A stretch of 64,000 nt of DNA from Promicromonospora soli (lineage in GTDB: Bacteria; Actinomycetota; Actinomycetes; Actinomycetales; Cellulomonadaceae), in the NCBI RefSeq assembly GCF_014653785.1, contig NZ_BNAS01000006.1, positions 1 to 64,000 of the forward strand, in the 5' to 3' direction. A program made the translations under genes and the position numbers. Positions 15,705-47,920 of the stretch are shown in pieces (the stretch's first letter is position 1; each line of letters opens with the position of its first letter). The notes under the pieces were generated by a model. The model was not told where the DNA came from. It worked only from the letters and a program-made list of their open reading frames with translations, and did no database searches.

Positions 15705-15780
15705 CCCGGGTGTTCACGGCAGAGTCTGTGGTGACGCACCTCACACCGGCGTGAGGCGCGTCGCCAAGGGGGGTTGCCGA

Positions 15781-16074
15781 ATGACGAACACCGAATTCGC
15801 GACGCTTCGCCGCTCGATCGAGCAGCTGCGCCACAGCGTCGCCGGGGTGCGCAACGCTTTCGGCGACGCGCCCGAGGTCCGCCGGCTCATCAACGATCTC
15901 GAGCGGCTCGAGATCGACGCGAGCGAGCTCGCCTCGGCCGAGCCCCTCCGGCAACCGGGCCTCCCCGGTCGGATTCCGGAGCACGTCGTCATCCCCGACA
16001 CGCCGCTGGACGAGACGATGTTCAGCGACGCTGACGACGAGGGCCTCGGCGGCTACCACGGCGACCGGTCGTGA
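15781..16074 (+). CDS. Small conserved protein at the head of the sdh operon
   Basis: A 97-residue acidic protein with a predicted helical N-terminal half (FATLRRSIEQLRHSVAGVRNAF in part, then EVRRLINDLERLEIDASEL) and an unstructured Asp-rich tail. There is no transmembrane segment and no family I recognise. The ATG at 15781 is preceded by a strong AAGGGGGG site. Its stop overlaps the GTG of the succinate dehydrogenase membrane subunit, so it is translated with the sdh genes. It may assist the complex. No function is proposed beyond that. Confidence 0.7.
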   Translation: MTNTEFATLRRSIEQLRHSVAGVRNAFGDAPEVRRLINDLERLEIDASELASAEPLRQPGLPGRIPEHVVIPDTPLDETMFSDADDEGLGGYHGDRS

Positions 16075-16895: not shown

Positions 16896-16911
16896 GAGAG
16901 GGAGCCCGGCC

Positions 16912-32204: not shown

Positions 32205-33001
32205 GTCATCTCACCCTTCGCGACCTTCGCCCCGATCTGGGCGGCGATCAGCATCCCGGAGCCGGGGTAGGCCGCCACCAGAGCCGCGGTCGTGGCGGCG
32301 CCGTCGGCCGAGCTCTCGAGGATGCGTTCGAAGTCGCGCAGGTAGGTGCGGGTGTAGTCGATGGCGCTCGCGTCGTTCGCTGTTTCCGGGAGGCGGTGAC
32401 CGGCGACGACGAACGCCGGGTCGAGCGCCTGCATCTCGTCGAGCAGCTCGATCCAGGCCGCACGCTGCTCCGGGGTCGCGGTGTCGGCCACCCACACGTG
32501 CTCCTGCTGGAAGAGGAGCACGCCGCCGATGATCGCCCGGTGCTCGGCGTTCCACAGGTAGTGGCGGTCGGGCAGGCCGGCCGGGCCGCCCCGGAGCTCG
32601 AACCGGGAGCCGTCGACCTCGATGACACTGCCGTCGAGCGGCTCGATCTTCGCCAGGCGGGTCGGCAGGTTCGGGCCGAGCGCGGCCCACGCCTTCAGCT
32701 TGCCCTCGTACGAGGCCTCGATGTGCTCGATGACGATGGGGGTCGCGACGATCCTTGCGTCCGGGAACGCGTCCGCGACGACTTCGAGGCCGAAGTAGAA
32801 GTCTGGGTCGGCGTGGCTGACGAAGACCGTGCCGAGGGTCTTGCCGGAGTCGAGGATCGCGGCGGCGAGACGGTGTCCGTCGGCGCGTGTGAAGCCGGCG
32901 TCGACCAGCAGGGCCTCGCTCTCGCCGGTGACCAGGACTGCCGACTTGTTCTTGGAGCCGGCGGGGAAGTCGAGGTCGAAGACCTCGAAGGACAGCGTCA
33001 T
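32195..33001 (-). CDS. Metallo-beta-lactamase-fold hydrolase with degenerate metal motif
   Basis: A 268-residue protein of the MBL fold (SAVLVTGESEALLVDAGF at the start, GGVLLFQQEHVWVADT, VVAGHRLPET near the end). The usual HxHxDH motif reads SHADPDFYFG, retaining the first His and the Asp but lacking the second and last His. It may therefore bind one metal or none. Substrate unknown. The ATG at 33001 follows GAGGAAGG. It is the first gene of a two-gene operon with the SnoaL-like gene, preceded by a perfect palindrome and the MarR gene. Confidence 0.8.
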   Translation of the reverse strand: MTLSFEVFDLDFPAGSKNKSAVLVTGESEALLVDAGFTRADGHRLAAAILDSGKTLGTVFVSHADPDFYFGLEVVADAFPDARIVATPIVIEHIEASYEGKLKAWAALGPNLPTRLAKIEPLDGSVIEVDGSRFELRGGPAGLPDRHYLWNAEHRAIIGGVLLFQQEHVWVADTATPEQRAAWIELLDEMQALDPAFVVAGHRLPETANDASAIDYTRTYLRDFERILESSADGAATTAALVAAYPGSGMLIAAQIGAKVAKGEMTWG

Positions 33002-33076
33002 GGTGAATCCTTCCTCGGGGCGCCCGGGGAGGGGCCGGGCGACGCGGCGCGCTTGCCGCATGCCGACCTAACAAAG

Positions 33077-33090
33077 GCTGACTAGTCAGC
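33077..33090. promoter_or_regulatory. Perfect 14-bp palindrome, probable MarR operator
   Basis: GCTGACTAGTCAGC is its own reverse complement. It lies 76 bp upstream of the MBL start and just after the MarR stop. The TGACTAGTCA core is the type of symmetric site MarR dimers use. The likely role is control of the MBL-SnoaL promoter. Confidence 0.55.
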
Positions 33091-33104
33091 TATTCCCGAG
33101 GAGC

Positions 33105-33599
33105 TCAGGGCATCACGGGAAGCTGCTGCTCCGCACTCTTGCTGAGCGTGCGGATGGCGACCGCGAAGGTCTCGGCCTGGTCGGCGGGCAGCACGTCGAC
33201 GAGGTACCGCTCGATGTTGCGCGCGTGGACCGCGCTCGCGCGCAGGAGGAGCTCCTCACCGGCGGGCGTGAGGAAGATGAGCTGCATGCGCCGGTCGGAC
33301 ACGGAAGGCCTGCGCTCGATGAGTCCCTGGTCGGCCGCCCGCTGCACCAGGCGCGTCGCGCCGCCCGAGGTGAGGACGCGTGCCTGCGCGATATCCCGCA
33401 CCGGCACGCCGTCAGGCCCGCCGCGGCCCACCACGAGCAGCAGCTCGAACAGAGTGTGGCTCAGGCCGGTCTCCTCCTCGAGCGCCCGGCCCAGGATGTA
33501 CTCGAGCCGGTTCGCGGCGCCGAGCAGTCGGCCGAAGACCAGGATCCGGGGGTCGTATGCGGCCTCTCGGGAGGAAGAGAACTCAGGCGGCGTGCTCAC
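33105..33599 (-). CDS. MarR family transcriptional regulator
   Basis: A 164-residue winged-helix regulator. It has the dimerisation helix LGAANRLEYILGRALEEETGLSHTLFELLL (in parts), recognition region VRDIAQARVLTSGGATRLVQRAADQGLIERRPS, wing SDRRMQLIFLTPAGEEL and a C-terminal dimer helix. The GTG at 33599 opens the normal-length protein. Codons further upstream belong to the opposite small gene's promoter. It probably controls the MBL-SnoaL pair next door through the palindrome at 33077 in response to a small aromatic or acidic ligand, by family analogy. Confidence 0.87.
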   Translation of the reverse strand: MSTPPEFSSSREAAYDPRILVFGRLLGAANRLEYILGRALEEETGLSHTLFELLLVVGRGGPDGVPVRDIAQARVLTSGGATRLVQRAADQGLIERRPSVSDRRMQLIFLTPAGEELLLRASAVHARNIERYLVDVLPADQAETFAVAIRTLSKSAEQQLPVMP

Positions 33600-33660
33600 C
33601 CGCTCAGCGTAGGCGAGGTGCTGGCCCGGGCGGCCGACGACAAGAAGTGCGCGGAACCAG

Positions 33661-33915
33661 GTGGCGCCGGCTTCCGACCCACTGCCCGGCACGCCGCTGG
33701 TCACCCGCGGCCTGGTCGCGGCCGGGCGAGCGCTCCTAGCCCGCGGGTACGCGCGGGCCTACGCCCAGGGCTCGCGGCGGCCGCTCCAGCACGTGGAGTC
33801 GTGGCTGGCCGTGCACACCGCGGCGCGGTTGTCGGAGGGCATCGTTGCCGAGCGACCCCGGCTCATCGGGCTGCTCCGCGACGCCTGGCGCAAGGGCGAG
33901 ACGTTGGAGCGGTAG
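33661..33915 (+). CDS. Small hypothetical protein
   Basis: An 84-residue basic, helical protein starting with GTG: TPLVTRGLVAAGRALLARGYARAY, HVESWLAVHTAARLSEGI and LIGLLRDAWRKGE in outline. I recognise no family. Codon third positions are GC-rich as in real genes here, and the frame fills a gap that is otherwise empty, which supports it. It is divergent from MarR and convergent with the REC-GGDEF gene, its stop lying 1 bp from that gene's end. Confidence 0.5.
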   Translation: MAPASDPLPGTPLVTRGLVAAGRALLARGYARAYAQGSRRPLQHVESWLAVHTAARLSEGIVAERPRLIGLLRDAWRKGETLER

Positions 33916-33916
33916 T

Positions 33917-34843
33917 TCACGGCGCTCGGAGGCCGGCCGAGGCAGCCGTGGCGATCTGGTTCCGGCCGGCCAGCTTCGCCTGGTAAAGGCGGGCGTCGGC
34001 AAGCTTGACCATGGCCTCGGAAGATCCGAAAGGGCCGAGCGCGCAGCCGCCGCTGACCGTGACGGTGATGCTCTGGCCGTCCGCAGCGACAGGCTCCGCG
34101 GCCGTCGCCGAGCGGATCCGTTCGGCGACCGTGAAGGCGCCGTCGAGTTCGGTGTGCGGCAGGATGAGGAGGAACTCCTCACCGCCCCAGCGCCCGCCGA
34201 CGTCGCCGGCACGCAGCTCCCGGCGCAGGCGGCCCGCGAAGGCACGCAGCACCTGGTCACCGGCCGAGTGCCCATAGGTGTCATTGACCAGCTTGAAATG
34301 GTCGACGTCCAGCAGCACCACCGACAGCGGATACCCGTGCCGGAGCGAGTCGCTGTGCCGGCGAGCCAGCTCCTCGTCGAGAAACCGCCGGTTGTAGAGA
34401 CCCGTCAGCGAGTCGATACGGCTGAGCTCCTCCAGTGCGGCATTGCGCTCCTGGAGCTCGTCCTGCAACTTCTTGACGTGCGACGCCGCCGCGACACGGG
34501 CCAGCAGCTCCGCTCCCTCGAACGGCTTCTTGAGATAGTCGTGCGCACCACCGCGCAGCCCCGACACCACATCGTCCATCGTGCTCCGGGAGGTCAGGAA
34601 CACGACCGGGATGTCCCGCAGCTCGCTGTCGCCCTTCAGCTCGGTCAGCACCTGGTACCCGTCCAGGCCGGGCATCTCCACATCGAGGAGCACGACGTCG
34701 GGCGGGTCCGCACGACACTGCTCGACCGCGTCCAGCCCGTCCACGGCCTCCACCACGCGGTAGCCCTCGGTCTCCAGACCGTCCCGGACCACGGCGCGGA
34801 TCACGAGCGAGTCGTCGGCGATCAGGACCGTCGTGGCGCTCAT
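33917..34843 (-). CDS. REC-GGDEF diguanylate cyclase response regulator (WspR-like)
   Basis: A 308-residue protein. Residues 4-118 are a receiver domain with acidic pocket IADDS, phospho-acceptor Asp54 (LLDVEMPGLDG) and Lys in LKKPFEG. A short coiled helix (KKLQDELQERNAALEEL) links to a GGDEF domain with active GGEEF at 220-224. The inhibitory I-site RAGD at 211-214 is correctly five residues ahead. Phosphorylation should trigger c-di-GMP synthesis. Domain order equals Pseudomonas WspR. It is the last of seven coupled chemosensory genes. Its ATG overlaps the CheW stop. Confidence 0.92.
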   Translation of the reverse strand: MSATTVLIADDSLVIRAVVRDGLETEGYRVVEAVDGLDAVEQCRADPPDVVLLDVEMPGLDGYQVLTELKGDSELRDIPVVFLTSRSTMDDVVSGLRGGAHDYLKKPFEGAELLARVAAASHVKKLQDELQERNAALEELSRIDSLTGLYNRRFLDEELARRHSDSLRHGYPLSVVLLDVDHFKLVNDTYGHSAGDQVLRAFAGRLRRELRAGDVGGRWGGEEFLLILPHTELDGAFTVAERIRSATAAEPVAADGQSITVTVSGGCALGPFGSSEAMVKLADARLYQAKLAGRNQIATAASAGLRAP

Positions 34844-35223
34844 AGCCGTCCGGCCAGTGCGGTCGGGTCGGCGACGAAGACGATGCCGTCGTCGGCGTCG
34901 ATCGTCCCCGAGACGAGACGATGGCGGCCCTGGCCCTTCGGAGCAGGCCGGATGTCGTCGGCGTCGACCCGCCGGAGGCCGGTGACACGGTCGACGAGCA
35001 GGCCGAATGCCTGTCCCTGGGCCTCGATCACCAGGATGTGCCGGCCGCTCGCATTGAGCGGGGAGATCACCGTCAGGGGTGGGTCCCCCGGGATGATGCC
35101 CGCGACGTCGGCGGCCGTGTCCGGCAGCGGGATCACGTCCGCGGCGGTGCGGACCGAGCGAGCTGCCTGCAGGGGCAGGCAGTATGCCGCGCCGGCCGCC
35201 CGGAAACAGACCATCGTCGTCAT
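34840..35223 (-). CDS. cheW: CheW-like adaptor (second)
   Basis: A 127-residue CheW-domain protein (MVCFRAAGAAYCLPLQAARSV, then VAGIIPGDPPLTVISPLNA, and AFGLLVDRVTGLRRVDADDI). CheW links receptor to kinase. This gene cluster has two, as in Wsp systems (WspB and WspD). The usual GLINLRG-type motif is altered to GIIPGD. The ATG at 35223 with GAGAGG ahead is preferred to an upstream start at 35253 that would overlap the methyltransferase gene. The stop overlaps the start of the cyclase gene. Confidence 0.85.
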   Translation of the reverse strand: MTTMVCFRAAGAAYCLPLQAARSVRTAADVIPLPDTAADVAGIIPGDPPLTVISPLNASGRHILVIEAQGQAFGLLVDRVTGLRRVDADDIRPAPKGQGRHRLVSGTIDADDGIVFVADPTALAGRL

Positions 35224-35249
35224 GAGGGACCTCTCACGTTCTTGATTCG

Positions 35250-36524
35250 TCACGTTCTGGAGTCGAGCAGCTTGAGGATCTCGGTTGCCGCGTAGCCGTC
35301 GAGCCCGGCGGGCGTGTGGTCAGGGCCGGCGTCGACCAGGGCGCGGCGAGCCGCCGCGAAGGCGCGCCGCGCCGGACCGTCGTCGCCTGCTGCCTCGAGC
35401 GCCAGCCCGAGGTGGAGCTGGGCCACCGGGTTGTGCGGCTCCAGGTACGTCCACTTGCGAAACACCACCACCGCCGCGCTGTAGTCACCCGCGGCGATGG
35501 CGTGCTGGCCCGCCGTCTCCAGCTGGTCGGCCGGTCCGGTGGGCTCTGGCTCGGGCGCCCCCGGCGGTCGTTCGGCCCTCCTGACGGGGCGGGCGGGTCG
35601 CGCCGGAGCGGCGGGAGCTGGCGTAGCCGCCGGGGACGTGCGCGTCCGGAGCGGGTTCCGCGGGTGCGGTGTGGCCGTCGGGGCCGCGGGCCGTCGCTGG
35701 TCCGGGCGGGGACGCTGTGCTGAGGAGCCCACGTGGGCGGGCCGCTGGCGGTAGATGAACGTGTCGCCCACGCGGATGGCACGGAAGCGGTCGGAGACCT
35801 GCCAGAGCGTCTCGGCAGCGCCGACGACGAGCGTCGTGGTCGGGGCGAGGCCCCCGGCGATCCTGTCGAGGAACAGGCGTACCTGCTCCGGGGCAAGGTA
35901 GATGAGCACGTTGCGGCAGAAGACCACCTGGCACGGCAGGACCTCGGGCGGGAGCGGGTCGAGGAGGTTGTGGTGCAGCGTGCTGACCCGGGACCGGACC
36001 GTCTTGCTGACCTCCCAGCCGTCTTCGACGCGGGTGAAGTGCCGCTCGAGCCGGCTGGGCGACAGGCCGTTGACCTCGCGGTGGCGGTAGCGAGCGGCCG
36101 CCGTTCGCCGCAACGCCGCGGTCGAGAGGTCCGTGGCTACGACGGCGCCGTCGATGCCCTGCTCCTCCAGGAGCATCGCCAGCGTGTAGGCCTCCTGGCC
36201 GTTGGCGCACCCCGCGCTCCAGATCCGCACCGGCCGGGGCACGTTCGGCAGCACCTCGCGCACCAGCACGTCGAACTGCTCGGGATGGCGGAAGAACCCT
36301 GTCTCCTGCACCGTGACCTGGTCCATCAAGCCCTGGAGCGAGGCGGCGTCCACTGTCAGCCGGTCGAGGTACGCCGTCGGATCCTGGCCGTGACGCGCGG
36401 CCTCCTCGCGGACCGCCCGGCGCAGGCGCCCCCGCAGGGTCTTGTCCGGGCGCAGGCCGATGCGCAGGTGGAGCAGGTCGGCCACCCGGTCGATCACGGC
36501 CTCGAGACCATGGCTGTGCGTCAT
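35250..36524 (-). CDS. cheR: CheR-type chemoreceptor methyltransferase with C-terminal TPR (WspC-like)
   Basis: A 424-residue protein. Residues 1-275 are CheR: helical N-terminus, then VTVQETGFFRHPEQF, the SAM site IWSAGCANGQEAYTLAM, and VVFCRNVLIYLAPEQ. Residues 280-350 are a Pro/Arg-rich linker, and residues 355-424 form TPR helices (GQHAIAAGDYSAAVVVFRKW, HLGLALEAAGDDGPARRAF). The CheR-linker-TPR form is that of WspC and FrzF rather than flagellar CheR. It methylates Glu residues of the receptor using SAM. The ATG at 36524 overlaps the CheB stop as ATGA. Confidence 0.9.
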   Translation of the reverse strand: MTHSHGLEAVIDRVADLLHLRIGLRPDKTLRGRLRRAVREEAARHGQDPTAYLDRLTVDAASLQGLMDQVTVQETGFFRHPEQFDVLVREVLPNVPRPVRIWSAGCANGQEAYTLAMLLEEQGIDGAVVATDLSTAALRRTAAARYRHREVNGLSPSRLERHFTRVEDGWEVSKTVRSRVSTLHHNLLDPLPPEVLPCQVVFCRNVLIYLAPEQVRLFLDRIAGGLAPTTTLVVGAAETLWQVSDRFRAIRVGDTFIYRQRPAHVGSSAQRPRPDQRRPAAPTATPHPRNPLRTRTSPAATPAPAAPARPARPVRRAERPPGAPEPEPTGPADQLETAGQHAIAAGDYSAAVVVFRKWTYLEPHNPVAQLHLGLALEAAGDDGPARRAFAAARRALVDAGPDHTPAGLDGYAATEILKLLDSRT

Positions 36525-37576
36525 CCGCGCACCACCTCGCGCACTGCCCGCTGCACGGCGTCGGCCAGCTTCTCGATCCGGATCAGCTCGGTCACCGCGC
36601 CGACGCCGACGGCGGCCTTCGGCATCCCGAACACCGTGGACGAGGCCTCGTCCTGGGCGAGGGTCGAACCACCGCGCTGGTGGATCGCCAGCAGTCCCCG
36701 CGCCCCGTCGTCGCCGATGCCGGTGAGCAGCACGCCGATCCCCGCCGAGCCCGCGGTGCGGGCAACCGACCGGAACAGCTCGTCGGCCGACGGCCGGTGC
36801 GTCGTCGCCGGCGTCTCGACCAGCTCGAGCCTGCCGTCGGCCGCGTAGTGAAGGTGACGGTCGCCGGGGGCGAAGTACACCCGCCCCGGCCGCGCGGTCT
36901 CGTGGTGCCGGGCGGTCTCGACGGGGAGCGCGGAGACCCGGGACATCCACCTGACCAGGCTCGTCGTGAAGTCGGGATGCAGGTGCTGAACCACCAGCAC
37001 CGGGGCCTGGAGCCCGGCAAGGCCCCCGAGCAGGATGGCCAGGGCGCTGGGTCCCCCGGTCGAGGCGCCGACCGCGACGACCGGTCGCCCGTCCGTGCGG
37101 GGCGCGGCGTCGCGTGGTGGGTCAAATGCATGGTTGCCCCGCGGATGCCGGATGACGTGGACCGTTCTGATCTGGCGGACGGCTCGCCGCAGCTCCGCGC
37201 CCTCCGCGGGTGTCCACTGCGGTGGCCGCGGCACGGCATCGAGGGCGCCTGCTACGAGAGCCGCGACCGCCGAGGGCGCGCGCCTGTCGCGGATGCGGGC
37301 GGACAGGATCAGGATCGGCGTGGGCGTTCGCGCCATGATCTGCTCGACGGCCCGCTGGCTCTGCCCGTCCCGGAGATGCAGGTCGAGGACGACGACGTCG
37401 GGCCGCGACGTCGCGACGAGCTCGATGGCCTCCGGGCCGGTGGAGGAACAGCCCGCGACGACGATGTCGCCCTCGGCCTGCAGGATCGACACCAGCTGGC
37501 TCCGCTGGGCGGACGCGTCCTCGACGAGGACCACGCGGATCTGGCCGGCTCTGCCGCCGAGGGTCCCGGCGTTCAT
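36521..37576 (-). CDS. cheB: CheB-type receptor methylesterase response regulator (WspF-like)
   Basis: A 351-residue protein with receiver domain (VVLVEDASAQRSQL; phospho-Asp65 in VVVLDLHLRDG) and a C-terminal methylesterase. The catalytic triad is visible: Ser172 in VGASTGGPSAL, His198 in VVQHLHPDF and Asp290 in GIGDDGARGLL. It removes methyl groups from the receptor when phosphorylated by the CheA-like kinase, giving adaptation. In Pseudomonas, loss of WspF locks WspR on. The ATG at 37576 overlaps the kinase stop. Confidence 0.93.
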   Translation of the reverse strand: MNAGTLGGRAGQIRVVLVEDASAQRSQLVSILQAEGDIVVAGCSSTGPEAIELVATSRPDVVVLDLHLRDGQSQRAVEQIMARTPTPILILSARIRDRRAPSAVAALVAGALDAVPRPPQWTPAEGAELRRAVRQIRTVHVIRHPRGNHAFDPPRDAAPRTDGRPVVAVGASTGGPSALAILLGGLAGLQAPVLVVQHLHPDFTTSLVRWMSRVSALPVETARHHETARPGRVYFAPGDRHLHYAADGRLELVETPATTHRPSADELFRSVARTAGSAGIGVLLTGIGDDGARGLLAIHQRGGSTLAQDEASSTVFGMPKAAVGVGAVTELIRIEKLADAVQRAVREVVRG

Positions 37577-39591
37577 GCCTTCACCCCCAGGAGGCGGTTC
37601 ACCGCGGTCACGAGGCTCGCCTCGTCGAAGGCGCTCTTGATGATGTAGCCGTCGGCGCCGACGTCCATACCCCGCTGCTGGTCGGCGTCGCTGGCACGGG
37701 AGCTCACGATGAGCACCGGGGTGTTGGCCAGGCTCGGATGGGCCCTGATCGCCTCGGTCAGTGCGAAACCGTCCATCCTCGGCATCTCGATGTCGGTCAC
37801 GACCAGGTCGCTGCGCTCCTGGCCGAGCATCCTCAGCGCGTGCTGCCCGTCGGTAGCGACCCGCACGTCGAACCCGGCTCGTTCGAGGATGCCGCGCTGC
37901 AGCTCGCGGATGACGAGCGCGTCGTCGACGACGAGCACGCTGCGCCGAGCGGCTCCGACGGCCTCGGCGGACGCCGTCGGCATGCTCGTCCGGCCCGTCC
38001 GACCTGTCCGCGCGGCCTGCTGGATCAGACCGGGCGGGTCGAGGACCACGAGGATCGACCCGTCGGGCTCCACGCCGGCACCCGCGACCAGCGGCAGGCG
38101 AGGAAGCACGGGGCTGAGTGCCTTGATGATCACGTCGCGCTGGCCGATCAGCCGGTCGACGCCGAAAGCGTGCCTCCGGGAGGCGCTGGCGAGCACCACC
38201 ACCGGCCCTTCGAACGTCTCGCCTCCGGCGAGCCCGAGCGTCTCGCCGAGCGCCTGGACGGGCACCGGACTGCCGTCCACCCACACCACCGGCCTTCCCT
38301 CGGCGCGCGCGGCATCGGCAGTGTCGGCACGGTCAGCACCGGAGGGCTCCTGGGCCTGGGAGAGCAGCACCCGGTGGAAGGGCAACGCGAAGGGCCGGCC
38401 GGCGGCCTCGACGAGCAGGCAGCGGAGCACGGCCACGGTGATCGGCACGATGATCCGGAACTCGGTGCCGACACCGGGCTCCGAATGGACCTCGACTCGC
38501 CCATGGGCCGCCTCTACGCTGGCCCGCACGACGTCGAGGCCGACACCGCGCCCCGACAGGTCGGTCACGAACTGCGCGGTGGACACCCCGGCCTGAAAGC
38601 TCAGCCCGAGACGCTCCTGGTGGCTGAGACCCTCGGTGTCGATGCCGAGGCGGTTCGCCTCCCGTTCGACGAGCTCCGTGTTGATGCCCCGGCCGTCGTC
38701 GCTCACCGCGATGATCACCTCCGAGCCGAGCTGCATCGCGTGGAGGCGCAGCGCCGCCTGGGACGGCTTCCCGACCCGCTCCCGCTCCTCGGGCGACTCG
38801 ATGCCGTGGTCGATCGCGTTGCGCACCAGATGCAGGACGGAGTCCGACAACCGGCGCAGCACGCCGCGGTCCATCTCGGTGTCCATGCCGGCCGCCTCCC
38901 ACCGGACGTCCTTGCCCTGGGCGCGCGAGATGTCGCGCACCGCCCGGCGAAGCTGGTCGGTGACGGTGGACACCGGCACCATCTGCGCGCGCATCGCGTG
39001 GTCGCGCAGGTCGTTGAGCGAGCGGGACAGCTCGTTGAACTCGGCAACCGTGGCCGGGTCGACACGGAACCTGTCGTTGAGCATCCGCCCGACGCGCAGC
39101 TGGGCCGAGGTGGTCTCGCCGACGAGGCGGGCGAGCTCCTCCAGGCGTTCGGCGGGAACCATGATGAAGTTGGCTGCGCCCGTCGCGGTCGGAGGGGGGT
39201 CTGGTCGCGTGTCGGCGGGCCCCGGAGCCTGGTCCACGGCCGAAGGCTGGGCGGCCGCCGGCCCTTCGGCCTCCGATCCGGAGATGGCCGCGCCGAGCTG
39301 GTCGGCGCCTCGCAGGAGCGTGTCGACCAGCTCGGCGGTGACCGGTCGCCGCCCGGCCCGCACCTCCTCGACCACCTCCTCGAGGTCGTGCGCCGTCCGG
39401 CTCACCTCGTCGAGCCCGGCGACGGCGGCCGAGCCCTTGAGCGTGTGCAGCTCGCGAAAGACGGACCCCACGAGGGTCTCGTCGTCGGCGTCCTGCTCGA
39501 GCCGGAGCAGCAGCCTGCCCAGCTCGGCGAGCCGGACCTCGGCCTCCTGCGCGAAGAGCTGACGCACCCGCTCCGGGCTCATGCCCGACAT
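37573..39591 (-). CDS. cheA: CheA-REC hybrid histidine kinase (WspE-like)
   Basis: A 672-residue kinase. HPt domain 1-105 has phospho-His49 in FRELHTLKGSA. A Pro/Ala linker replaces the CheY-binding P2 domain. The dimer and ATPase region has the N-box LVRNAIDHGIE, DDGRGI and GRGVGLDVV. A CheW-like domain spans roughly 385-530. A C-terminal receiver has phospho-Asp in LVVTDIEMPRMDG. The order Hpt-HATPase-CheW-REC without P2 matches WspE. It should phosphorylate both the CheB and the REC-GGDEF proteins. ATG 39591 overlaps the CheW stop; an ATG three codons later is also possible. Confidence 0.93.
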   Translation of the reverse strand: MSGMSPERVRQLFAQEAEVRLAELGRLLLRLEQDADDETLVGSVFRELHTLKGSAAVAGLDEVSRTAHDLEEVVEEVRAGRRPVTAELVDTLLRGADQLGAAISGSEAEGPAAAQPSAVDQAPGPADTRPDPPPTATGAANFIMVPAERLEELARLVGETTSAQLRVGRMLNDRFRVDPATVAEFNELSRSLNDLRDHAMRAQMVPVSTVTDQLRRAVRDISRAQGKDVRWEAAGMDTEMDRGVLRRLSDSVLHLVRNAIDHGIESPEERERVGKPSQAALRLHAMQLGSEVIIAVSDDGRGINTELVEREANRLGIDTEGLSHQERLGLSFQAGVSTAQFVTDLSGRGVGLDVVRASVEAAHGRVEVHSEPGVGTEFRIIVPITVAVLRCLLVEAAGRPFALPFHRVLLSQAQEPSGADRADTADAARAEGRPVVWVDGSPVPVQALGETLGLAGGETFEGPVVVLASASRRHAFGVDRLIGQRDVIIKALSPVLPRLPLVAGAGVEPDGSILVVLDPPGLIQQAARTGRTGRTSMPTASAEAVGAARRSVLVVDDALVIRELQRGILERAGFDVRVATDGQHALRMLGQERSDLVVTDIEMPRMDGFALTEAIRAHPSLANTPVLIVSSRASDADQQRGMDVGADGYIIKSAFDEASLVTAVNRLLGVKA

Positions 39592-40037
39592 CAGCCGTCC
39601 CCGTTCGAGGCCAGGTCGAGCCGTGCGGCCGGGTCCCGCACGCGTTCGGGGGACAGGAGCGCCGCGGGGTCGAGCAGCGCGGCCGCCTGCCGGCCCACCT
39701 GATAGAGCCCCGTGGTCCCCGGCAGGTCGGAGGGCCCGGCGGGCGTATCGAGCATCCGACGCTGAGGGACGCCGGTCGTCGCCAGTGCGGCAAGACCGTG
39801 CGCGCTGTTCACGACCACGGCGAACGCCACCGTCTCGACCCTCCCCAGGCCCAGCAGAGCAGCCGTGTCGAACAGCGGGACGATCTGACCTCGCAGGTTG
39901 AACAGACCGATGACGACCTGCGGCGCGGTCGCCAACGGCGTCAGGGTCGGGCCGGCGACGACCTCGCGTGCCCAGTCCACCGGCAGCGCGTGGAGGTCGG
40001 TTCCCACCGGGAGCAACAGGGCGTGGACGTCGGTCAT
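39591..40037 (-). CDS. cheW: CheW-like adaptor (first)
   Basis: A 148-residue CheW-domain protein with PVDWAREVVAGPTLTPL, the conserved VVIGLFNLRGQIVPLFDTAALLG and a C-terminal part that ends in a short charged tail. It bridges the MCP and the CheA-like kinase. ATG 40037 is annotated. A GTG at 40058 would overlap the MCP stop, and neither has a strong ribosome site. It lies between the MCP and kinase genes, as WspB does relative to WspA. Confidence 0.88.
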   Translation of the reverse strand: MTDVHALLLPVGTDLHALPVDWAREVVAGPTLTPLATAPQVVIGLFNLRGQIVPLFDTAALLGLGRVETVAFAVVVNSAHGLAALATTGVPQRRMLDTPAGPSDLPGTTGLYQVGRQAAALLDPAALLSPERVRDPAARLDLASNGDG

Positions 40038-40059
40038 CGGTGTCCCGGTCGCCGGCACG

Positions 40060-41784
40060 TCAGTACCGGTCCCGTGCCGCGGCCGCGGTGCTCTCGAGGT
40101 TGCCCGCGAGGTCCGCGAGGTTGCCGGCGGCGTCGGCGATCTGCTGGGCGGTGGCCGAGACCTGCCGGCTGGCGTCGCTGAGCTGTTCCATGGTCTCCAC
40201 GACCTGCGCGGTGGCGCTGCGCTGCTGCTGGGTCGTGAGACGGACCTGGTCGTGGGCGTGGGTCACGGCCTCGAGCAGCACCAAGCCGTGCTGCATCTGC
40301 TTGGCGCCCTTCTCCATCGCGATGACCGTGGCGTTGGTCTCGTCCTGGACCGCCGCGACGATCTCGGCGATGTTTCCGGCGGACGCCTTGGAACGTTCGG
40401 CGAGGCGACGTACCTCGTCGGCCACGACGGCGAAGCCGCGGCCGTTCTCGCCGGCGCGGGCGGCCTCGATCGCCGCATTGAGGGCGAGCAGGTTGGTCTG
40501 GTCGGCGATGTCGTTGATCAGCTCGAGCAGGGCGTCGATGTCGTTGACGCGGCCGGCCAGCGTCAGCGTGCGCTCGCTCGACGTCGCGATGTCGCCCTCG
40601 GCCTGCTCGAGGTTGTCCCTGGTCTCGGCCGTCTGCCGGACGACGTCGTCGACGGTCTCGGCGATCGCCGCCGAGGACCGGGACAGCTCCTCGGTGGTCA
40701 CCGCGACCTGGGTGAACGCGGCGCTCTGCTGGGTGGTGGTCGCGGCCAGCTCGTCCGACGACGCCGACAGCTCGGCCGCCGCCGAGTTCACCTCCACACC
40801 CGCGTTCGTGGTCCGGTCGGCGAACTTCCTGAGGTTTCGCGCCTCGTGGACGCCGAAGAGCAGGGCTGCTCCGATCGCGAGGACGATCCCGACCGCGAGT
40901 ACCAGAAGGGCGTACTGGCGCTCGGTGGCCACCGGGGCGAGCAGGACGTCGGCGCGTTCCTCGGCGACGATGATCCAGCCCAGGTCGTCGACGAGGTCGT
41001 ACCCGCCGATGACGTCGTGGCCGTGCGGGTCGGTGAACCGCGCGGCGCCGGGCTGGCCGGTGGTGGCCGCCTGCCGGGTTGCGGCGTTGTCGATGGTGGA
41101 GCTGAGCGCGCCGGCAGCCAGCATCGCGGTGTCGTCGGGGACCTCGGCCATCTCCTCGGTGCTGTGGATCAGACGAAGCTGCGAGTCCACCGTGAAGACC
41201 TCGCTGGCTTCCTCCAGCCCCGGGTCGAGCAGGTCGGAGAGCCGCACCGGGTTGAGGTTGCCGATCAGCACGGCCTGCGGGCGGCCGTCCTCGCCCAGCA
41301 CCGGCTGTGCCATGACCCACTCGATGTGGTCGCCCTGCCGGACCAGCGAGGTCAGGACCGACTGGCCCTCGGCGGCACGCAGGAACCACTCCTGGCCGGA
41401 CGGGTCGATCCCGGCGCCGGCTCCGCTGCTCAACAGCACCTCGCCGTCCAGGTCGGTGACCTCGATCAGGGTGAACTCGTCCCCGGTCTCCGCGACGTGC
41501 GCCAGCGCGGACCGGGTCTCCTCAGAAGCCGGGTCGGCGGCCGCGGTCGTGGCGAGGACGGTCAGGCTCTCACGCCGTTCGGCCAGCCAGTCCTCCAGGC
41601 GCAGCGTGAGGGCGTGGGCGACGCTCTGCCCATTCTGCTCGGCCGCGGCGGTGAGGCTCGTCGCCGTCGAGTTCGTCAACAGCAACGCAAGCACGACCAG
41701 CAGGGGCAGGGAGACGGACAGGACCGCCGCCGCCAGGCGGTAGCGATACCGCAGTCTTCGACGCGGTGACAGCCGGCGGGTCAT
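40060..41784 (-). CDS. Methyl-accepting chemotaxis-type receptor (WspA position), dCache-like sensor
   Basis: A 574-residue receptor. The first membrane helix is at 17-38, an extracytoplasmic dCache-like sensor at 40-290 ([43 protein letters not shown]), and the second helix near 293-316. The cytoplasmic four-helix signalling part follows, with hairpin tip [20 protein letters not shown] then [24 protein letters not shown] typical HAMP domain is not evident after the second helix. Methylation-type Glu pairs occur ([11 protein letters not shown]). The C-terminal CheR-tether pentapeptide is absent. It is the first gene of the seven-gene operon, preceded by a 198-bp gap. Confidence 0.92.
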
Positions 41785-41982
41785 GGTGCTGCTACCGAGT
41801 GTTGCGCGACAACGGGGTCAGTCCTTTTGCGCAATGGCGGCGTTATTACTTTTCGCTCGACGCTCGTCCTGAGGTGCATCTCAGATCTCCTCTGTCGCAG
41901 CCACTGTCTCGCGCCAGACGACTATTCGGACCAATCGGTAATCAGCCGGGCGTACCGCCAAAAGCCAGCATGACACGGGGCA

Positions 41983-42807
41983 TCAATAAACGTCAGATAT
42001 ACGGCCCGACGGGATATTCGACAGCCAATGATCGTCGACTTCTGCCGCGGTCAGCGGTCGACCCAGGGCGAAGCCTTGAGCGGATTCCACGCCGGTTTCT
42101 CTGAGCAGCTCGAACTGGTCCGTGTGCTCGACTCCTTCCGCAACCATCGGCAGGCCGAAGGCACGGATGGTGTCCACCATGGACCGGAAGCGCTCGCGCG
42201 ACGCCGTGGTCTCGACGTCGAGGTAGCTCCTGTCGATCTTCACGATGTCCAGGGGGAGACGAGAGAGCTGGGCGACGGTGCTGTGTCCCGTGCCGAAGTC
42301 GTCCAGGCTCAGAGAGACACCCATCCGCCGCAGCTCCCACAGGTTCGCCACGGCGAGAACGTCGCCGACCAGCACGGTCTCGGTGACCTCGACGACGAGC
42401 AGGCCGGGATCGAGGCCGCTGCGCCGCAGGGCGTTCGCTACGTCGTCCCGGATTCGTGGCGCATTGATGTGACGGCCGGAGACGTTGACGGCCATGGTCA
42501 GGGAGCGGGGTCCGTGCGTGCTGATCCAGGCGGCGGCCTGCTCCGTCGCGTTGTTCAGCACCCACGTGTCGATCTCGCAGATCAGCGCGGACTCCTCGGC
42601 AGCGGGAATGAACTCTGCCGGAGGAAGCAGCCCCAGTCCCGGCCGATCCCATCGGACCAGCGCTTCGAACCCCTCGAGGGCTCCGGTCCGGACGCTGATG
42701 ATCGGCTGGTAACGCAGCACGAGCTCGTCATGGTCGACGGCGTGCGATATCGCGGTCTCGAGGTCTGACCAGACCATGAATTCCTCGCCGTATCGAGCGC
42801 TGTCCAT
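41983..42807 (-). CDS. EAL domain c-di-GMP phosphodiesterase
   Basis: A 274-residue protein, nearly all EAL domain. The signature EGFEALVRW is intact, with NVSGRHI, VEVTETVLV, the loop-6 DDFGTGHS, VKIDRSYL and the late VAEGVEH. These residues bind Mg2+ and cut c-di-GMP to pGpG. There is no sensor domain, so activity may be set by partner proteins or expression. It starts 3 bp after the glycosyltransferase-PilZ gene and is surely in the same transcript. The 198-bp gap before the MCP gene (41785-41982) shows no further gene. Confidence 0.92.
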   Translation of the reverse strand: MDSARYGEEFMVWSDLETAISHAVDHDELVLRYQPIISVRTGALEGFEALVRWDRPGLGLLPPAEFIPAAEESALICEIDTWVLNNATEQAAAWISTHGPRSLTMAVNVSGRHINAPRIRDDVANALRRSGLDPGLLVVEVTETVLVGDVLAVANLWELRRMGVSLSLDDFGTGHSTVAQLSRLPLDIVKIDRSYLDVETTASRERFRSMVDTIRAFGLPMVAEGVEHTDQFELLRETGVESAQGFALGRPLTAAEVDDHWLSNIPSGRISDVY

Positions 42808-42810
42808 GTG

Positions 42811-44898
42811 TCAAACATTCTCTGCGGGGCTGTGCTCCGCGATGAGCACACCGAGCGAACGAGCGGTACGCCGCCGCCGCATTGCGGCAACGGCGGGCAC
42901 CCCCGCGGGAATGCCGTCGATTGCGCCTGGCGGGGTGTGGAACAGCCACATCGAGATGGCGTGGAATGCGGCCCAGTCGTCTTGGACGACCTTCATCGAC
43001 ACGATCTTGTCATGGCTCGACGGCGCTGTGACCGTGCGGACGACGGTCAGCCGCACGGGTGCGGCCCCGGGGAGGTTGAGCTCGACCACCTGGGCAGTCG
43101 GCGTCGTGCCCGCGGGAAACCGGACGGCCGCCCCGCCGATCGAGATGTCCACGAGCTCGCCCTCAGTGCCGTCGATGACCACCTTGGCGCGCACCGCGAC
43201 GCGGTGCGCGTTGCGTCGTGACGTCGCGTAGGCGGGCGCCATGACCCGTGCCGCACCATAGACCAGGCCGATCCCGGCCAGCAGCAGCCAGACGCCCGAC
43301 GCCACCGTCGCGCCGGCAGTCGCGCGCCAGGGAACCCAGCCCAGGGCACCGGCCAGCGCGTAGAGCAGCACCCCGAAGAGGATGGCGATCAGCACGGTCA
43401 CGATGTGGGGCGGGCGACTCCGTCGTCGCAGGTCGGCGCCCGCCTTGGGGGTCACCGCGAACTTGAGGGTCCGCCGGGTCACCAGCCACCACAGGCACGA
43501 GAATCCCACAGGGATGCGGAAGATCCGCAGCGCGAACGACGTCGGAAGGTGCAGGTGGTGCCGGAAGAGCTGCCGCACGCCCCACATCCGCACCACGAAC
43601 ATCGCGACGAAGACGGCGGCGAAGACTCCTGGACCGGCGGTCGACGTCTGCGCACCACTGAGCAGGATCACCACTGGGAGGATAAACACCGCGACCGTGA
43701 CGACCCCTTCCAGCCACCACACGGTCCCGCTGAGGTACTCGAAGTAGTTACGCCACGACATCCATCTCTTCGCGGCCCACAGCCGTTCCTTGGCGAGAAC
43801 CTGCATGGAGCCCAGGCCCCACCGGGTCCGCTGCAGGAGGTACTGCTCCGGGGTCTGGGGCGCCAGTCCGACGGCCAGGGTCTGACTGTGGTAGACGGTC
43901 TTCCAGCCCGCGCGGATGAGGCCCAGGGTCGTGTGCATGTCCTCCACTATCGTGTCGGTGGCGATCCCTCCCACCTCTCGCAGAGCGCGCAGGCGGAGCA
44001 GGGAGGTGGAGCCGCACCAGAACGGTCCGGCGCTGTCGTGGTTGCGGGCCGCCATCAGGACGTGGAAGAAGATGCCCTGCTCCCCGGTGACGCCGTCGTC
44101 GTCGAACGCACCAGAGTTGTAGAACGTCTGGGGGCCTTGCACCAGCGCGATGTCGGGATCGTCGAACCAGCCCAGGGTGGCGGTGAGGAAAGTCGGCAGC
44201 GGCACGTGGTCACAGTCCAGCACAGCGATGATGTCGACGTCGCCGCCTCCGTCCGCGGCCTCCCGCGCCATGAGGTCGAGAGTGTGGTTGAGGTTGCCGG
44301 CCTTGGCGTGGTCGTGCACCGGCCGGCGGACGTAGCGGGCGCCGTACGCCCGGCACATCTCCTCGACCCAGTCCCGGTCGCCGTCGTCGAGCACCCACGT
44401 CTCATGGGCAGGTCGCAGCGCGCACGCTGCGGCGATCGTTGGCGCGATGACCTCCACCGGCTCGTTGTAGGTCGGGATGAGAACCGCCACCCTCATCCCG
44501 GCGGGAAGCTCGCTGACCGGCTTCGGGGCGCGGCAGTCGATGTTCCACAGCGTCACGATACGGATCATCAGACCCAGCAGAGGAAGCGCCTCGAAGCTGA
44601 CCAGGATCCATGCCGCCGTCTTGTCCCATCCTCCGGTCGGCATGGTGAAGGTGACCCTCCACCACAGGTACGCCACGATGGCCCCGACCGCGACGAGGCC
44701 GCCGACCCTCGCGAGCCGGCGGCTGCGCGGTGACTCGGGTCGAGGCGCGCCCAGCAGGTACGCCCAGCCGGCCAGCTCGCTCACCGGCTCGACCGAGGCC
44801 GATATCCCTCGTGCCCGCGTCGGGATGTCTCTGAAGCTTCTGGCGGACCGGACCTTGGCCCCGGCGGGGGCAGAGCCACCGGTTGGGTTCCGATTCAT
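42811..44898 (-). CDS. BcsA-like family 2 glycosyltransferase with C-terminal PilZ c-di-GMP receptor domain
   Basis: A 695-residue membrane synthase. Two N-terminal helices are followed by a GT-A domain with LIPTYNEP, the UDP-site ETWVLDDGDRDW, a DCD triad (VLDCDHVP), the acceptor motif VEDMHT (TED in cellulose synthases) and QRTRW (QxxRW). Four to five helices form the export channel. Near residue 560 begins a PilZ domain with RRNAHR (RxxxR) and DISIGG ([D/N]xSxxG), the c-di-GMP binding residues. It would polymerise and extrude a glucan-like exopolysaccharide when c-di-GMP is high. No BcsB or BcsZ lies nearby. ATG 44898, behind GAGGGGG, is preferred over GTG 44925. Confidence 0.9.
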   Translation of the reverse strand: MNRNPTGGSAPAGAKVRSARSFRDIPTRARGISASVEPVSELAGWAYLLGAPRPESPRSRRLARVGGLVAVGAIVAYLWWRVTFTMPTGGWDKTAAWILVSFEALPLLGLMIRIVTLWNIDCRAPKPVSELPAGMRVAVLIPTYNEPVEVIAPTIAAACALRPAHETWVLDDGDRDWVEEMCRAYGARYVRRPVHDHAKAGNLNHTLDLMAREAADGGGDVDIIAVLDCDHVPLPTFLTATLGWFDDPDIALVQGPQTFYNSGAFDDDGVTGEQGIFFHVLMAARNHDSAGPFWCGSTSLLRLRALREVGGIATDTIVEDMHTTLGLIRAGWKTVYHSQTLAVGLAPQTPEQYLLQRTRWGLGSMQVLAKERLWAAKRWMSWRNYFEYLSGTVWWLEGVVTVAVFILPVVILLSGAQTSTAGPGVFAAVFVAMFVVRMWGVRQLFRHHLHLPTSFALRIFRIPVGFSCLWWLVTRRTLKFAVTPKAGADLRRRSRPPHIVTVLIAILFGVLLYALAGALGWVPWRATAGATVASGVWLLLAGIGLVYGAARVMAPAYATSRRNAHRVAVRAKVVIDGTEGELVDISIGGAAVRFPAGTTPTAQVVELNLPGAAPVRLTVVRTVTAPSSHDKIVSMKVVQDDWAAFHAISMWLFHTPPGAIDGIPAGVPAVAAMRRRRTARSLGVLIAEHSPAENV

Positions 44899-44949
44899 GG
44901 GCGCCCCCTCGAGGAGAGATTTCACCCCCCACGGTAAGCGAGAACCGGT

Positions 44950-46539
44950 TCAGCGGCCCGACGACGAACCTGCCGACCGCGAAAGGTGGCCGCGCACGCC
45001 GGCTCGGCCCCGGGCGGGAGCGACATGCCCGGTGCCGAACCGCCGCGACAGCGCGCCGCGCAGCCGCTCGCGCCCGCTGAGGTGGCCGTTGCCGTCCGCG
45101 TGGCCCGGCGTGGCCGGAACAGGGACGACGGCGAGGCGCGCCCGCTCGGCGTCGTCGACCGCCTGGTGGACCTCGGCGTAGCCGCCGTTCGGCATCCGGA
45201 CGATCCGGCCCGTCTCGTGCCCGTGCAGCACGATCTCGCGGTCCTTGCGCTGCAGGCCGATGCAGATGCGCCGGGTGACCTCGAACGCGAGTGGGGGGCC
45301 GACGAACAGCGTGACCTGCAGCGCAGTGATGACCGACTCGAAGCTGACACTGAACTCGGTGGACACGATGTCGGCGCTCGCGGCACCCCACAGGACTCCG
45401 TAGAAGAGCGCGCCGGCGACGCCGATCCCGGTACGGACCGGGACGTTCCTCGGCCGGTCGAGCACGTTGTGCACCTCGCGGTCCTGGTTGACCCACGACT
45501 CGACGTACGGGTAGACGACAAGAAGCCCGAAGTAGAGCCCGACCACCGCCATGGGGACCAGCGTCGCGAGGGTCACCGTCCACCCCATCCACTCGGTCTC
45601 CCAGCCCACCGGGACCAGTCGGAGCGCACCGTCGAGGAAGCCCATGTACCAGTCGGGCTGGCTGCCCGCGCCGACCTCGCCCACGGACGCCGGTCCGTAC
45701 GACCAGACGGGGCTGATGGTCGACGTCGCACCGAGCAGCACGAGCACGGCGCCGGTGATGCCCCCCATCCCCGCGGCGCGGAACGCGGCGTCGGGCCACA
45801 GCCGCAGCCCGAGCGACGGGACGGGCTCCGGCCGAGCCTGCTCGGGCTGACCGTGCCTCAGCGCGAGCGCCGCGCGGGCAGCGATGACCACGACGATCAG
45901 TGCCGGAGCGATGGCCACGTGCAGGGGGTACAGGTTCTCGATGATCTGGCCCGGGAACGGCCCGCCGAACATCAGGTTCGCCGCCCAGACGCCGATGAAC
46001 GGGATGCTGAGCACCACGCCCTCCACGATGCGGAGGCCCGTGCCGGAGAGCATGTCGTCCGGCAGGGCGTAACCGCTCCAGCCGGCGGCGAGAGTCAGGA
46101 TGAAGGCACCGACCAGCAGGACCCAGCTCAGCTGCCGCGGCCGGCGGAACCCGCCGGAGAAGAACGTGACGAGCAGCTGCATGATGATCGAGGCGGGCAT
46201 GACGAGCGCGGCCCAGTGGTGCGTCTGGCGCACCAGGAGGCCGCCGGTCTGCTCGAACGAGATGTACATCATCGAGGCAAAGGCCTCGGTCACCGTCGCG
46301 CCCTGGAGGGGCTCGTAGGGGCCGTCGTACGTGACGAGCTCGCCCGACGGCGTGTACGGGAACGCGAGCAGTATCCCGGTCACGGTCAGGACGAGCAGGC
46401 AGGCGAAGGTGACGACGCCGAACAGGTTCGACCAGTGCAGCCGCACCCGCCGTCGGGCGAGCGCGGAGGCGAGCGCGGAGGCGCGCGCCGGGGCGAGGGC
46501 TGCGAGCTTCGTGAGCCGACGGCGGCGGTCAACCGGCAT
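44950..46539 (-). CDS. bc-complex cytochrome b subunit paralogue (QcrB-like), orphan
   Basis: A 529-residue membrane protein with eight or so helices. It has haem-ligand His pairs in the first half (VRQTHHWAALVM, and NLYPLHVAIAPA) and the quinol-site PDWYMGF, the actinobacterial form of PEWY. The C-terminal 130 residues are cytoplasmic and Gly/Arg-rich. No qcrA (Rieske) or qcrC genes accompany it. Instead it overlaps the NDH-2 gene by 11 bp. It may pass electrons from menaquinol to an unidentified partner, or be a paralogue with altered partners. The ATG at 46539 is inside the ndh frame. Confidence 0.87.
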   Translation of the reverse strand: MPVDRRRRLTKLAALAPARASALASALARRRVRLHWSNLFGVVTFACLLVLTVTGILLAFPYTPSGELVTYDGPYEPLQGATVTEAFASMMYISFEQTGGLLVRQTHHWAALVMPASIIMQLLVTFFSGGFRRPRQLSWVLLVGAFILTLAAGWSGYALPDDMLSGTGLRIVEGVVLSIPFIGVWAANLMFGGPFPGQIIENLYPLHVAIAPALIVVVIAARAALALRHGQPEQARPEPVPSLGLRLWPDAAFRAAGMGGITGAVLVLLGATSTISPVWSYGPASVGEVGAGSQPDWYMGFLDGALRLVPVGWETEWMGWTVTLATLVPMAVVGLYFGLLVVYPYVESWVNQDREVHNVLDRPRNVPVRTGIGVAGALFYGVLWGAASADIVSTEFSVSFESVITALQVTLFVGPPLAFEVTRRICIGLQRKDREIVLHGHETGRIVRMPNGGYAEVHQAVDDAERARLAVVPVPATPGHADGNGHLSGRERLRGALSRRFGTGHVAPARGRAGVRGHLSRSAGSSSGR

Positions 46540-47920
46540 GGCGCACCACGCTCAGCTCGGGCCGTGGAGCGGTCTCCTGGGCGGGCGCACCGGCAGCCGC
46601 TCCGGCGAACGGGTCTCCGCCCGCGAGGAACGCGGCCCGCGGCTGCTGCACCGTGGCGAGCGGGATGATGTCGCGCCCGAAGAGCGCGGCCGACGCCCAG
46701 ACGAGCAGCACGCGGATCTTGCGCTCCCAGGTCGGCACGGCCAGCACGTGGTAGCCGCGGTGCATGAGCCAGGCCAGGACGCCCTTGATGACGAGGCGGC
46801 GGTACTGGAAGATGCCTTGCCCGATGCCGAGCGTCGCGACGGTGCCGAGGCTGTGGTGGATGTAGGGCCGCACCTTCTTGCCGCGCAGGTCGGCGACCAG
46901 GTTGGCCGCCAGGAGCTTGCCCTGGCGTACGGCGTGCTGCGCGTTCGGCACGGTCCGCGCGCCGGGCACGGCGGAGGCGAGGTCCGGCACGGCGGCGTTG
47001 TCGCCGGCGGCCCACGCGTCGGGGACAGGCGCATCGTCGGTGCCGACGCGGAGGTCGGCCCGAACGCGGACCAGTCCGCGCTCGTCGACCGGCAGGTCGG
47101 TGTTCCGCGCTACGACGGGGTTGCTGCCGTTGCCGGCCGCCCAGATCAGCATCCCGTTGCCGTAGGACTGGCCGTCGGCCAGGACTATCCGGCCGCCGGC
47201 GGCCGAGGTGACGTGGGTTCCGAGGTGGAGGTGCGCGCCCCGCTTCTCCAGGTGGCGCACCACCCAGCGGCCGGGCTCGTCGGTGACCTCGGGCAGGATC
47301 CGCTCGTTCGTGTCGACGAGGTGGAAGCCCAGGTCGTCGAAGCTGAGCTCGGGGTAGGAGCGCAGCAGGCTCGTGGCCAGGGACAGCAGCTCGCCGAACA
47401 CCTCGACCCCGGTGAACCCGCCGCCGACGACGGTGACCGTCAGCAGCCGCCGGCGCTCCGGCCCCGGGGGGAGCAGCGCGGCGCGGTCGAAGGCGGTCAG
47501 GAGCTGGTCGCGGATCGCGACTGCCTCCTCGACGTGCTTGAGCCCGATCGCCTCCTCCGCGATCCCGGGCACCGGGAACGTGCGGGTCACGGCGCCGGCG
47601 GTGACGACGATCGTGTCGTATCCGATCTCGCGGATGGCGCCGTCGTTGGTGCGGACTGTGGCGGTGCGGTGTGCGTGATCGATCGACGTCGTGTGGCCGG
47701 CGATGATGGTGCTGCGGCGCAGATGCCTGCGCAGCGACACCATCACGTGCCGCGCCTCGATCGAACCAGCCGTGACTTCCGGCAGGAACGGCTGGTAGGT
47801 CATGTAGCCGTGCGGGTCGACGAGGGTGACCTCCGCCTCGCCTCTGCGGAGCTTCTTCTCCAGGCCCCACGCGGTGTAGAAGCCGGCGTAGCCGCCGCCG
47901 ACGATCAGAATCTTCTCCAT
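46529..47920 (-). CDS. ndh: Type II NADH:quinone oxidoreductase (NDH-2)
   Basis: A 463-residue flavoprotein. The FAD fold begins LIVGGGYAGFYTAWGLE, the second nucleotide fold VTVVGGGFTGVEVFGEL binds NADH, and AAGDNAAVPD is the C-terminal FAD motif. QHAVRQGKLLAANL marks the quinone-side region, and C-terminal amphipathic helices (LVIKGVLAWLMHRGYH) anchor it to the membrane. It oxidises NADH and reduces menaquinone without proton pumping. The ATG at 47920 has a strong AGGAGG. Coupling to the cytochrome b gene suggests a short electron path through the quinone pool. Confidence 0.93.
   Translation of the reverse strand: MEKILIVGGGYAGFYTAWGLEKKLRRGEAEVTLVDPHGYMTYQPFLPEVTAGSIEARHVMVSLRRHLRRSTIIAGHTTSIDHAHRTATVRTNDGAIREIGYDTIVVTAGAVTRTFPVPGIAEEAIGLKHVEEAVAIRDQLLTAFDRAALLPPGPERRRLLTVTVVGGGFTGVEVFGELLSLATSLLRSYPELSFDDLGFHLVDTNERILPEVTDEPGRWVVRHLEKRGAHLHLGTHVTSAAGGRIVLADGQSYGNGMLIWAAGNGSNPVVARNTDLPVDERGLVRVRADLRVGTDDAPVPDAWAAGDNAAVPDLASAVPGARTVPNAQHAVRQGKLLAANLVADLRGKKVRPYIHHSLGTVATLGIGQGIFQYRRLVIKGVLAWLMHRGYHVLAVPTWERKIRVLLVWASAALFGRDIIPLATVQQPRAAFLAGGDPFAGAAAGAPAQETAPRPELSVVRHAG

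Follow-up and report, generated by a model that had tools for sequence, protein, structure and literature searches.

The stretch of DNA analysed here (hereafter, the window) comprises 64,000 nucleotides of the actinobacterium Promicromonospora soli (contig NZ_BNAS01000006.1, positions 1 to 64,000) and carries a seven-gene chemosensory operon with a diguanylate cyclase gene as its evident output. Gene domains were called by Pfam profile matches on the predicted open reading frames (ORFs). All seven genes lie on the minus strand. The first encodes a methyl-accepting chemotaxis protein (MCP, 41784-40060), in which Pfam and alignment recognised a transmembrane (TM) segment, a dCache_1 domain, a second TM segment and the signalling domain, with no HAMP match. 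It is followed by a CheW (CheW1, 40058-39591; 60.4 bits) and by a CheA fused to a C-terminal receiver (REC) domain (CheA-REC, 39591-37573), with an Hpt domain bearing H49, a canonical P3, P4 and P5. Then come a CheB with REC and methylesterase domains (37576-36521, the start being set by the overlap with the CheA stop), a CheR methyltransferase (36524-35250, start also set by the overlap), a second CheW of 137 aa (CheW2, 35253-34840), in which only the second half matched the Pfam profile, and the REC-GGDEF diguanylate cyclase (34843-33917), with D54, GGEEF and the I-site RAGD. MCP and CheW1 are separated by a 1-bp gap, CheW1 and CheA overlap by 1 bp, and the remaining four junctions are 4-bp overlaps. 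The initial annotation, made from the sequence alone, had described seven same-strand and mostly overlapping genes of these kinds, with a CheA-REC devoid of P2 and an output protein with intact GGEEF and I-site; all this was confirmed, including the absence of a P2 match by Pfam, and the receiver aspartate D54 is present as well. Of its CheR-TPR, the CheR stands, while the tetratricopeptide repeat (TPR) part is reduced to one weak C-terminal stretch (20.9 bits, below the Pfam cut-off of 25). No Rfam match at gathering score was found anywhere in 33000-46600, which rules out a known regulatory RNA at the locus at that score.

Two further minus-strand genes, missed by the initial annotation, lie upstream of the MCP gene. 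One encodes a 704-aa BcsA/CelA-like glycosyltransferase of family 2 (GT2) with a C-terminal PilZ domain (GT2-PilZ, 44925-42811; Pfam GT2 families and PilZ), a predicted polysaccharide synthase activated by cyclic di-GMP (c-di-GMP). The other, which starts 3 bp after it, encodes a stand-alone EAL phosphodiesterase of 274 aa (42807-41983; Pfam EAL 213.5 bits, EAL motifs present), and is separated from the MCP gene by a gap of 198 bp (41785-41982). The synthase matches solved BcsA chains (E 1.4e-47) and its PilZ domain scores 22.6 bits, with a Pfam cut-off of 22.5. It resembles BcsA in the GT2 core motifs, in a gating-loop-like FxVTxK and in the PilZ motifs RxxxR and DxSxGG, while the TED motif reads VED; the catalytic and c-di-GMP-binding roles of these motifs are those described for BcsA. 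We consider that the two genes belong with the seven-gene core, and that this linkage is more telling than the seven genes alone.

To describe the distribution of the system, the window CheA was used as query on 221 genomes of the family, 396 of the order, 394 of the class and 396 of the phylum (about 1,294 different genomes). The close CheA type was found in eight genomes, window included, and the seven others are 58-84% identical to it. Within the family, any CheA match (E 1e-40) was found in 118/221 genomes, and four of these, the window's own counted, have the close type (at least 70% identity; window, G189, G021, and G138). The other 114 (32-39% identity) are presumed to be flagellar; the seven of them included in the tree have a second CheW-like stretch, as F5 CheA do. 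One more close relative was found at the order level (G954, 64%), one at the class level (G1023, 64%), and two at the phylum level (G409, 58%, and G494, 59%). More distant kin were G341 (48%), G233 (51%, cut by a contig end), G499 (43%), and G601 (41%).

The order MCP-CheW-CheA-CheB-CheR-CheW-cyclase is common to all eight genomes, save that in G1023 no CheW2 was found. Thus, the seven-gene block is not a chance assembly: its gene order recurs in seven further genomes. The genes scanned on either side of the block vary from genome to genome; this, and the patchy occurrence of the system, suggest horizontal transfer of a core that forms a distinct actinobacterial clade scattered among few genomes. 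CheA H49, the ATPase boxes, and the REC aspartate and lysine, present in the window, are kept in 8/8 aligned systems, and so are D54 and GGEEF of the cyclase; the I-site RxxD is present in the window copy. The CheB receiver aspartate is kept in six of the eight, window included, and is missing in G409 and G954 (CheB receivers of loci L153 and L168), and therefore phospho-feedback on adaptation is not universal among these systems. Two apparent gene disruptions were ruled out: the apparently missing core of the G189 MCP corresponds to a series of X (unknown or masked bases) rather than to a frameshift, and the split CheA match in G021 is a single open frame.

The receptor ectodomain was recognised as dCache_1 over residues 45-274 (60.8 bits); its structure, predicted alone, had a predicted local distance difference test (pLDDT) score of 36. 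By alignment, the signalling domain is collinear in length with E. coli Tap (36H), and TM2 leads directly into the signalling helices, with no HAMP in between. Read along the alignment, the receptors of G138, G409, G494, G954, G1023, and G341 have HAMP and those of the window, G189, and G021 do not; among the more distant ones, G499, G601, and the shortened G233 frame also seem to be without it. A dCache ectodomain suggests that a chemical ligand, more than surface contact, is sensed. The initial annotation had spoken of a surface-sensing system, and nothing we found points in that direction.

The GT2-PilZ gene follows the operon closely within the family. Among 34 chosen genomes, an orthologue (74-100% identity) was found in the window genome, G189, G021, and G138, i.e., in 4/4 family genomes in which the operon was found, and the other matches reached at most 38% identity. 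Conversely, none of the 11 operon-less congeners gave a match at E 1e-30. LDDGDR, DCDH, VEDMHT, QRTRW, FxVTPKAG, RxxxR, and DxSxGG are kept in all four orthologues. The upstream order GT2-EAL-MCP is found in the window, G189, and G021, so that the nine-gene block is present in three family genomes; in G021 this order was reconstructed from two contig ends which share an exact 127-bp overlap inside the MCP gene. In G138 no EAL gene was found, and GT2-PilZ adjoins the MCP gene, at a distance of 12 bp if the MCP begins at its earliest possible start and of about 110 bp if it begins where the window copy does in the alignment.

Two observations on the surroundings of these genes are added here. 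The EAL gene has the lowest GC content at third codon positions (0.81) among 21 genes measured, against 0.90-0.94 in its two neighbours on either side, in line with a foreign origin. Furthermore, a QcrB-like cytochrome b gene and an NAD/FAD oxidoreductase gene (44950-47920 in the window) form an overlapping pair whose end lies 24 bp ahead of the start of GT2-PilZ; next to the operon in G189 and G138, the stretches read gave no cytochrome b match.

We then considered the whole complement of chemosensory and c-di-GMP genes. The window genome (5.38 Mb, completeness 100) has CheW domains in three places, all in the operon locus, and one MCP signalling domain, that of the operon; this is the only chemosensory system found in the genome, and a cyclase gene is its evident output, as the initial annotation had proposed. 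Over the cut-off, PilZ was matched in two of the 13 congeneric genomes (the window's, with one match, and G189), in both cases in the operon synthase. As for GGDEF, the window genome has four proteins, G189 a single one, located in the operon, G185 and G190 one each, and the other nine genomes, among which G187 is only 83% complete, none. Most sampled genomes of the genus thus have neither GGDEF nor PilZ matches.

Taken together, these results lead us to favour, as the probable explanation, a self-contained chemosensory-to-polysaccharide circuit, belonging to a distinct actinobacterial clade and linked in the family to its own likely effector. This reading draws on the kept domains and residues, the shared gene order, the adjacency and co-occurrence of GT2-PilZ, the single MCP/CheW locus, and the PilZ and GGDEF counts. 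The extracellular dCache domain of the membrane receptor would bind a small ligand, and the receptor, together with CheW1 and CheW2, would control CheA. The kinase would autophosphorylate at the Hpt residue H49 and transfer the phosphate to the REC-GGDEF protein at D54; this protein, once phosphorylated, would make c-di-GMP; the REC domain of CheA may act as an alternative acceptor or as a brake. As the kept motifs suggest, c-di-GMP could bind to the PilZ domain of GT2-PilZ, the BcsA-like synthase encoded alongside, and open it for polymer synthesis. The I-site and the EAL enzyme would limit the c-di-GMP pool, and CheR and CheB would tune the receptor.

Several points weigh against such a circuit. 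The window genome has three GGDEF proteins beyond that of the operon, and the circuit is therefore not closed there. One of them, a second REC-GGDEF protein (L238:9429-10517, contig C2, approximately 397.4-398.5 kb), is 93% identical to that of the operon (281/302). The 66-bp stretch before its gene resembles (86%) the end of CheR and the beginning of CheW2 in G021, and the locus apparently represents a decayed second copy of the operon of which the cyclase would be the sole survivor. While nine of the 11 operon-less congeners are without GGDEF, the single proteins of G185 and G190 occur with no operon, and PilZ matches below the cut-off (at most 19.9 bits) were found in G185, G192, G193, and G195. 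Among c-di-GMP domains, the genome-wide counts cover GGDEF and PilZ only. On the effector side, the synthase scores 276.6 bits against NCBIfam CelA, below the equivalog cut-off of 699.1, i.e., it misses the cellulose-synthase threshold, and its polymer is therefore not necessarily cellulose; in this, as in VED for TED, it differs from BcsA, and no BcsB was found among the neighbours scanned. The EAL motif DDFGTG is altered in two of the three copies (DDFGTK in G189, DDFGAG in G021), and the 198-bp gap before the MCP gene leaves room for a separate promoter in the window. Outside the family, GT2-PilZ has only distant matches in G954 and G1023 and none in G409 and G494; in these four genomes the core must have another target.

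Some of these points would also fit chemosensory genes and GT2-PilZ/EAL genes that are separate modules travelling together, with the array controlling a REC protein elsewhere and the cyclase serving general c-di-GMP signalling: the gap, the four genomes with the core and no synthase orthologue, and the additional GGDEF proteins of the window genome. However, GT2-PilZ directly adjoins the MCP gene in G138, the only PilZ and the only GGDEF found in G189 are both within the operon, and the co-occurrence is strict within the family genomes searched. We regard separate modules as unlikely.

The initial annotation had read the locus as the exact parts list and domain layout of Wsp, with only the gene order changed. 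Such a reading would imply a genuine Wsp system, received from Proteobacteria by inheritance or transfer, whose genes were rearranged and whose sensor domain was replaced. As reference, we used the annotated wsp locus of Azoarcus sp. KH32C plasmid pAZKH (L210) and seven loci recognised by homology to it and by their neighbours (L208, L209, L212, and L214-L217); in L208, L214, and L217 no WspR-type gene follows CheB. The seven protein kinds are indeed the same: in the Azoarcus locus, as in the window, MCP, two CheW, CheA-REC without P2, CheB, CheR with TPR, and REC-GGDEF are clustered. By blastp, identity to the Azoarcus proteins is 36% for CheA, 33% for CheB, 31% for CheR, 38% for the cyclase, and 30% for MCP, and the CheWs match over 24 residues only. 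The layout differs in more than the order (A-B-E-F-C-D-R in the window, A-B-C-D-E-F-R in Wsp). Azoarcus WspA has 4HB_MCP_1 and HAMP, whereas the window MCP has dCache_1 and no HAMP; the WspA of L210 and L209 is longer than the 36H-like window MCP by 14 residues per receptor arm, and we take WspA to be of 40H length. Moreover, the canonical P3 of the window CheA has no detected counterpart in Azoarcus WspE, the REC-to-GGDEF linker measures 26 residues in the window and 38 in Wsp (Pfam borders), and in the window EAL and the PilZ synthase are linked.

The best matches of the cyclase among solved structures were PleD (238.8 bits summed across its two receivers, with 159.0 for the best single stretch), Leptospira DgcR 6zxm (177.5 bits), and WspR 3bre (167.9 bits). 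WspR thus comes close behind 6zxm, best among the solved cyclases with a single receiver, which speaks for a Wsp origin; taken together, these scores do not decide the relation to Wsp.

Two phylogenetic trees, without Frz and without Pseudomonas Wsp, were compared: one of CheA (P3-P5, 77 rows) and one of concatenated CheA, CheB, and CheR (45 systems, 806 columns; MCP not included). A contig scan gave at least 80 loci, judged by their neighbours to be largely Pil-Chp and Campylobacterota kinases, with no actinobacterial one among the matches listed, and 22 of 80 entered the CheA tree. Among others, L156, L163, L165, L166, L170-L177, L223-L227, L050, L058, L064, and L107 were left out of the concatenate, most of the loci left out being without a CheB or CheR match. 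In the CheA tree, the actinobacterial set had a support of 88/60 alone and 100/99 with L155, L156, and L163, the Wsp set 100/100, and the flagellar group, with Campylobacterota and one Verrucomicrobia row, 98/91. In the concatenated tree, which is the only one CheR entered, the values were 100/98 for the actinobacterial set (100/100 with L155), 100/100 for Wsp, which adjoins Pil-Chp at 86/91, and 99/99 for the flagellar group with the Verrucomicrobia row. In both, the actinobacterial systems and the eight Proteobacterial Wsp systems are separate, neither being nested in the other, and a recent transfer from Proteobacterial Wsp is thus unsupported. The forks that tie the actinobacterial, Wsp, and flagellar groups are mostly weak, and the approximately unbiased (AU) test did not reject the union of the actinobacterial and Wsp systems in one clade (p-AU 0.318 for CheA, 0.148 for the concatenate).

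In the excerpted text of PMC8552884, Wsp systems are defined by wspA-wspF synteny with at least 30% identity and, by that synteny, are exclusive to beta- and gammaproteobacteria. Here, gene order differs from the synteny, and our comparison was with Azoarcus, where that study used Pseudomonas and Burkholderia queries. Judging from the features tested (order, receptor length, sensor domain, and CheA P3), the system appears Wsp-like in plan and function and not a member of Wsp, and a true Wsp origin seems quite improbable to us.

A flagellar-chemotaxis remnant, retained after flagellar loss, is very improbable: the canonical P3 and the E. coli-length receptor are those of flagellar systems, but in both trees the CheA falls outside the flagellar group, in which the family's presumed flagellar CheA (about 36% identity) is placed, its C-terminal REC and REC-GGDEF partner also speak against it, and FlhA has no match in the window genome. 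The organism is probably non-flagellated; FlhA, whose control search was positive in 4/14 known genomes, was the sole genome-wide flagellar test. The initial annotation's claim that no separate CheY, CheZ, or flagellar gene exists holds for the neighbouring ORFs scanned; stand-alone CheY-like proteins were not searched genome-wide.

Among described systems, the excerpted text of PMC5907407 reports a Halomonas chemosensory cluster 2 that, like the present operon, resembles Wsp, uses a GGDEF output, has no flagellar genes in its vicinity, and is sporadic; the authors favour lateral transfer. It differs from the window in its 40H receptor, separate CheY, Hpt-REC-REC-GGDEF output, and gene order, and the same text does not mention a polysaccharide synthase. 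A Halomonas plasmid locus in our set (L211) has a cluster of that order. For Actinobacteria, the portion of PMC10746217 consulted lists the classes F1, F5, F7, F9, and ACF, the latter in six species, and the words "wsp" and "diguanylate" do not occur in its main text. The flagellar F5 CheA shares the canonical P3 with the window CheA, but belongs to another clade and has an extra CheW domain. A search of the open-access literature (titles and abstract openings of the papers listed; most subscription papers lie outside) found no actinobacterial chemosensory operon with a cyclase output.

Other arrangements were seen during the survey. A second actinobacterial CheA-REC type (L170-L177), which matches from P4 to REC at 39-44% identity, was found at E 1e-80 in 39/394 class-level genomes. 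Eight such regions were viewed: CheA is followed by a REC protein, seven regions have an adjoining MCP (one is cut by a contig end), and neither CheB nor CheR was found. At about 40% identity, this type was set apart because its P3 is unmatched and its neighbours differ. In G601, a related cluster lies between two Hpt-REC-GGDEF proteins, each having three REC stretches (L157:4569-6695 and 15589-18219), another GGDEF-output arrangement.

In our interpretation, the system is a conserved variant of cyclase-output chemosensory systems, linked in the family to its likely effector. If this is true, Actinomycetota would have chemotaxis-type arrays that are coupled to c-di-GMP and form a clade separate from the Proteobacterial Wsp systems compared, with sensor, messenger, and effector within one locus. 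It is an even question whether the operon is, more broadly, a transferable c-di-GMP circuit of array, cyclase, phosphodiesterase, and PilZ-gated synthase, which wires chemosensing to exopolysaccharide without motility and, as far as GGDEF and PilZ show, makes up the whole c-di-GMP economy of G189. With one GGDEF and one PilZ, both of them operon-encoded, G189 would offer a rare and minimal case for measuring how an array sets c-di-GMP and a single output, free of cross-talk among numerous cyclases.

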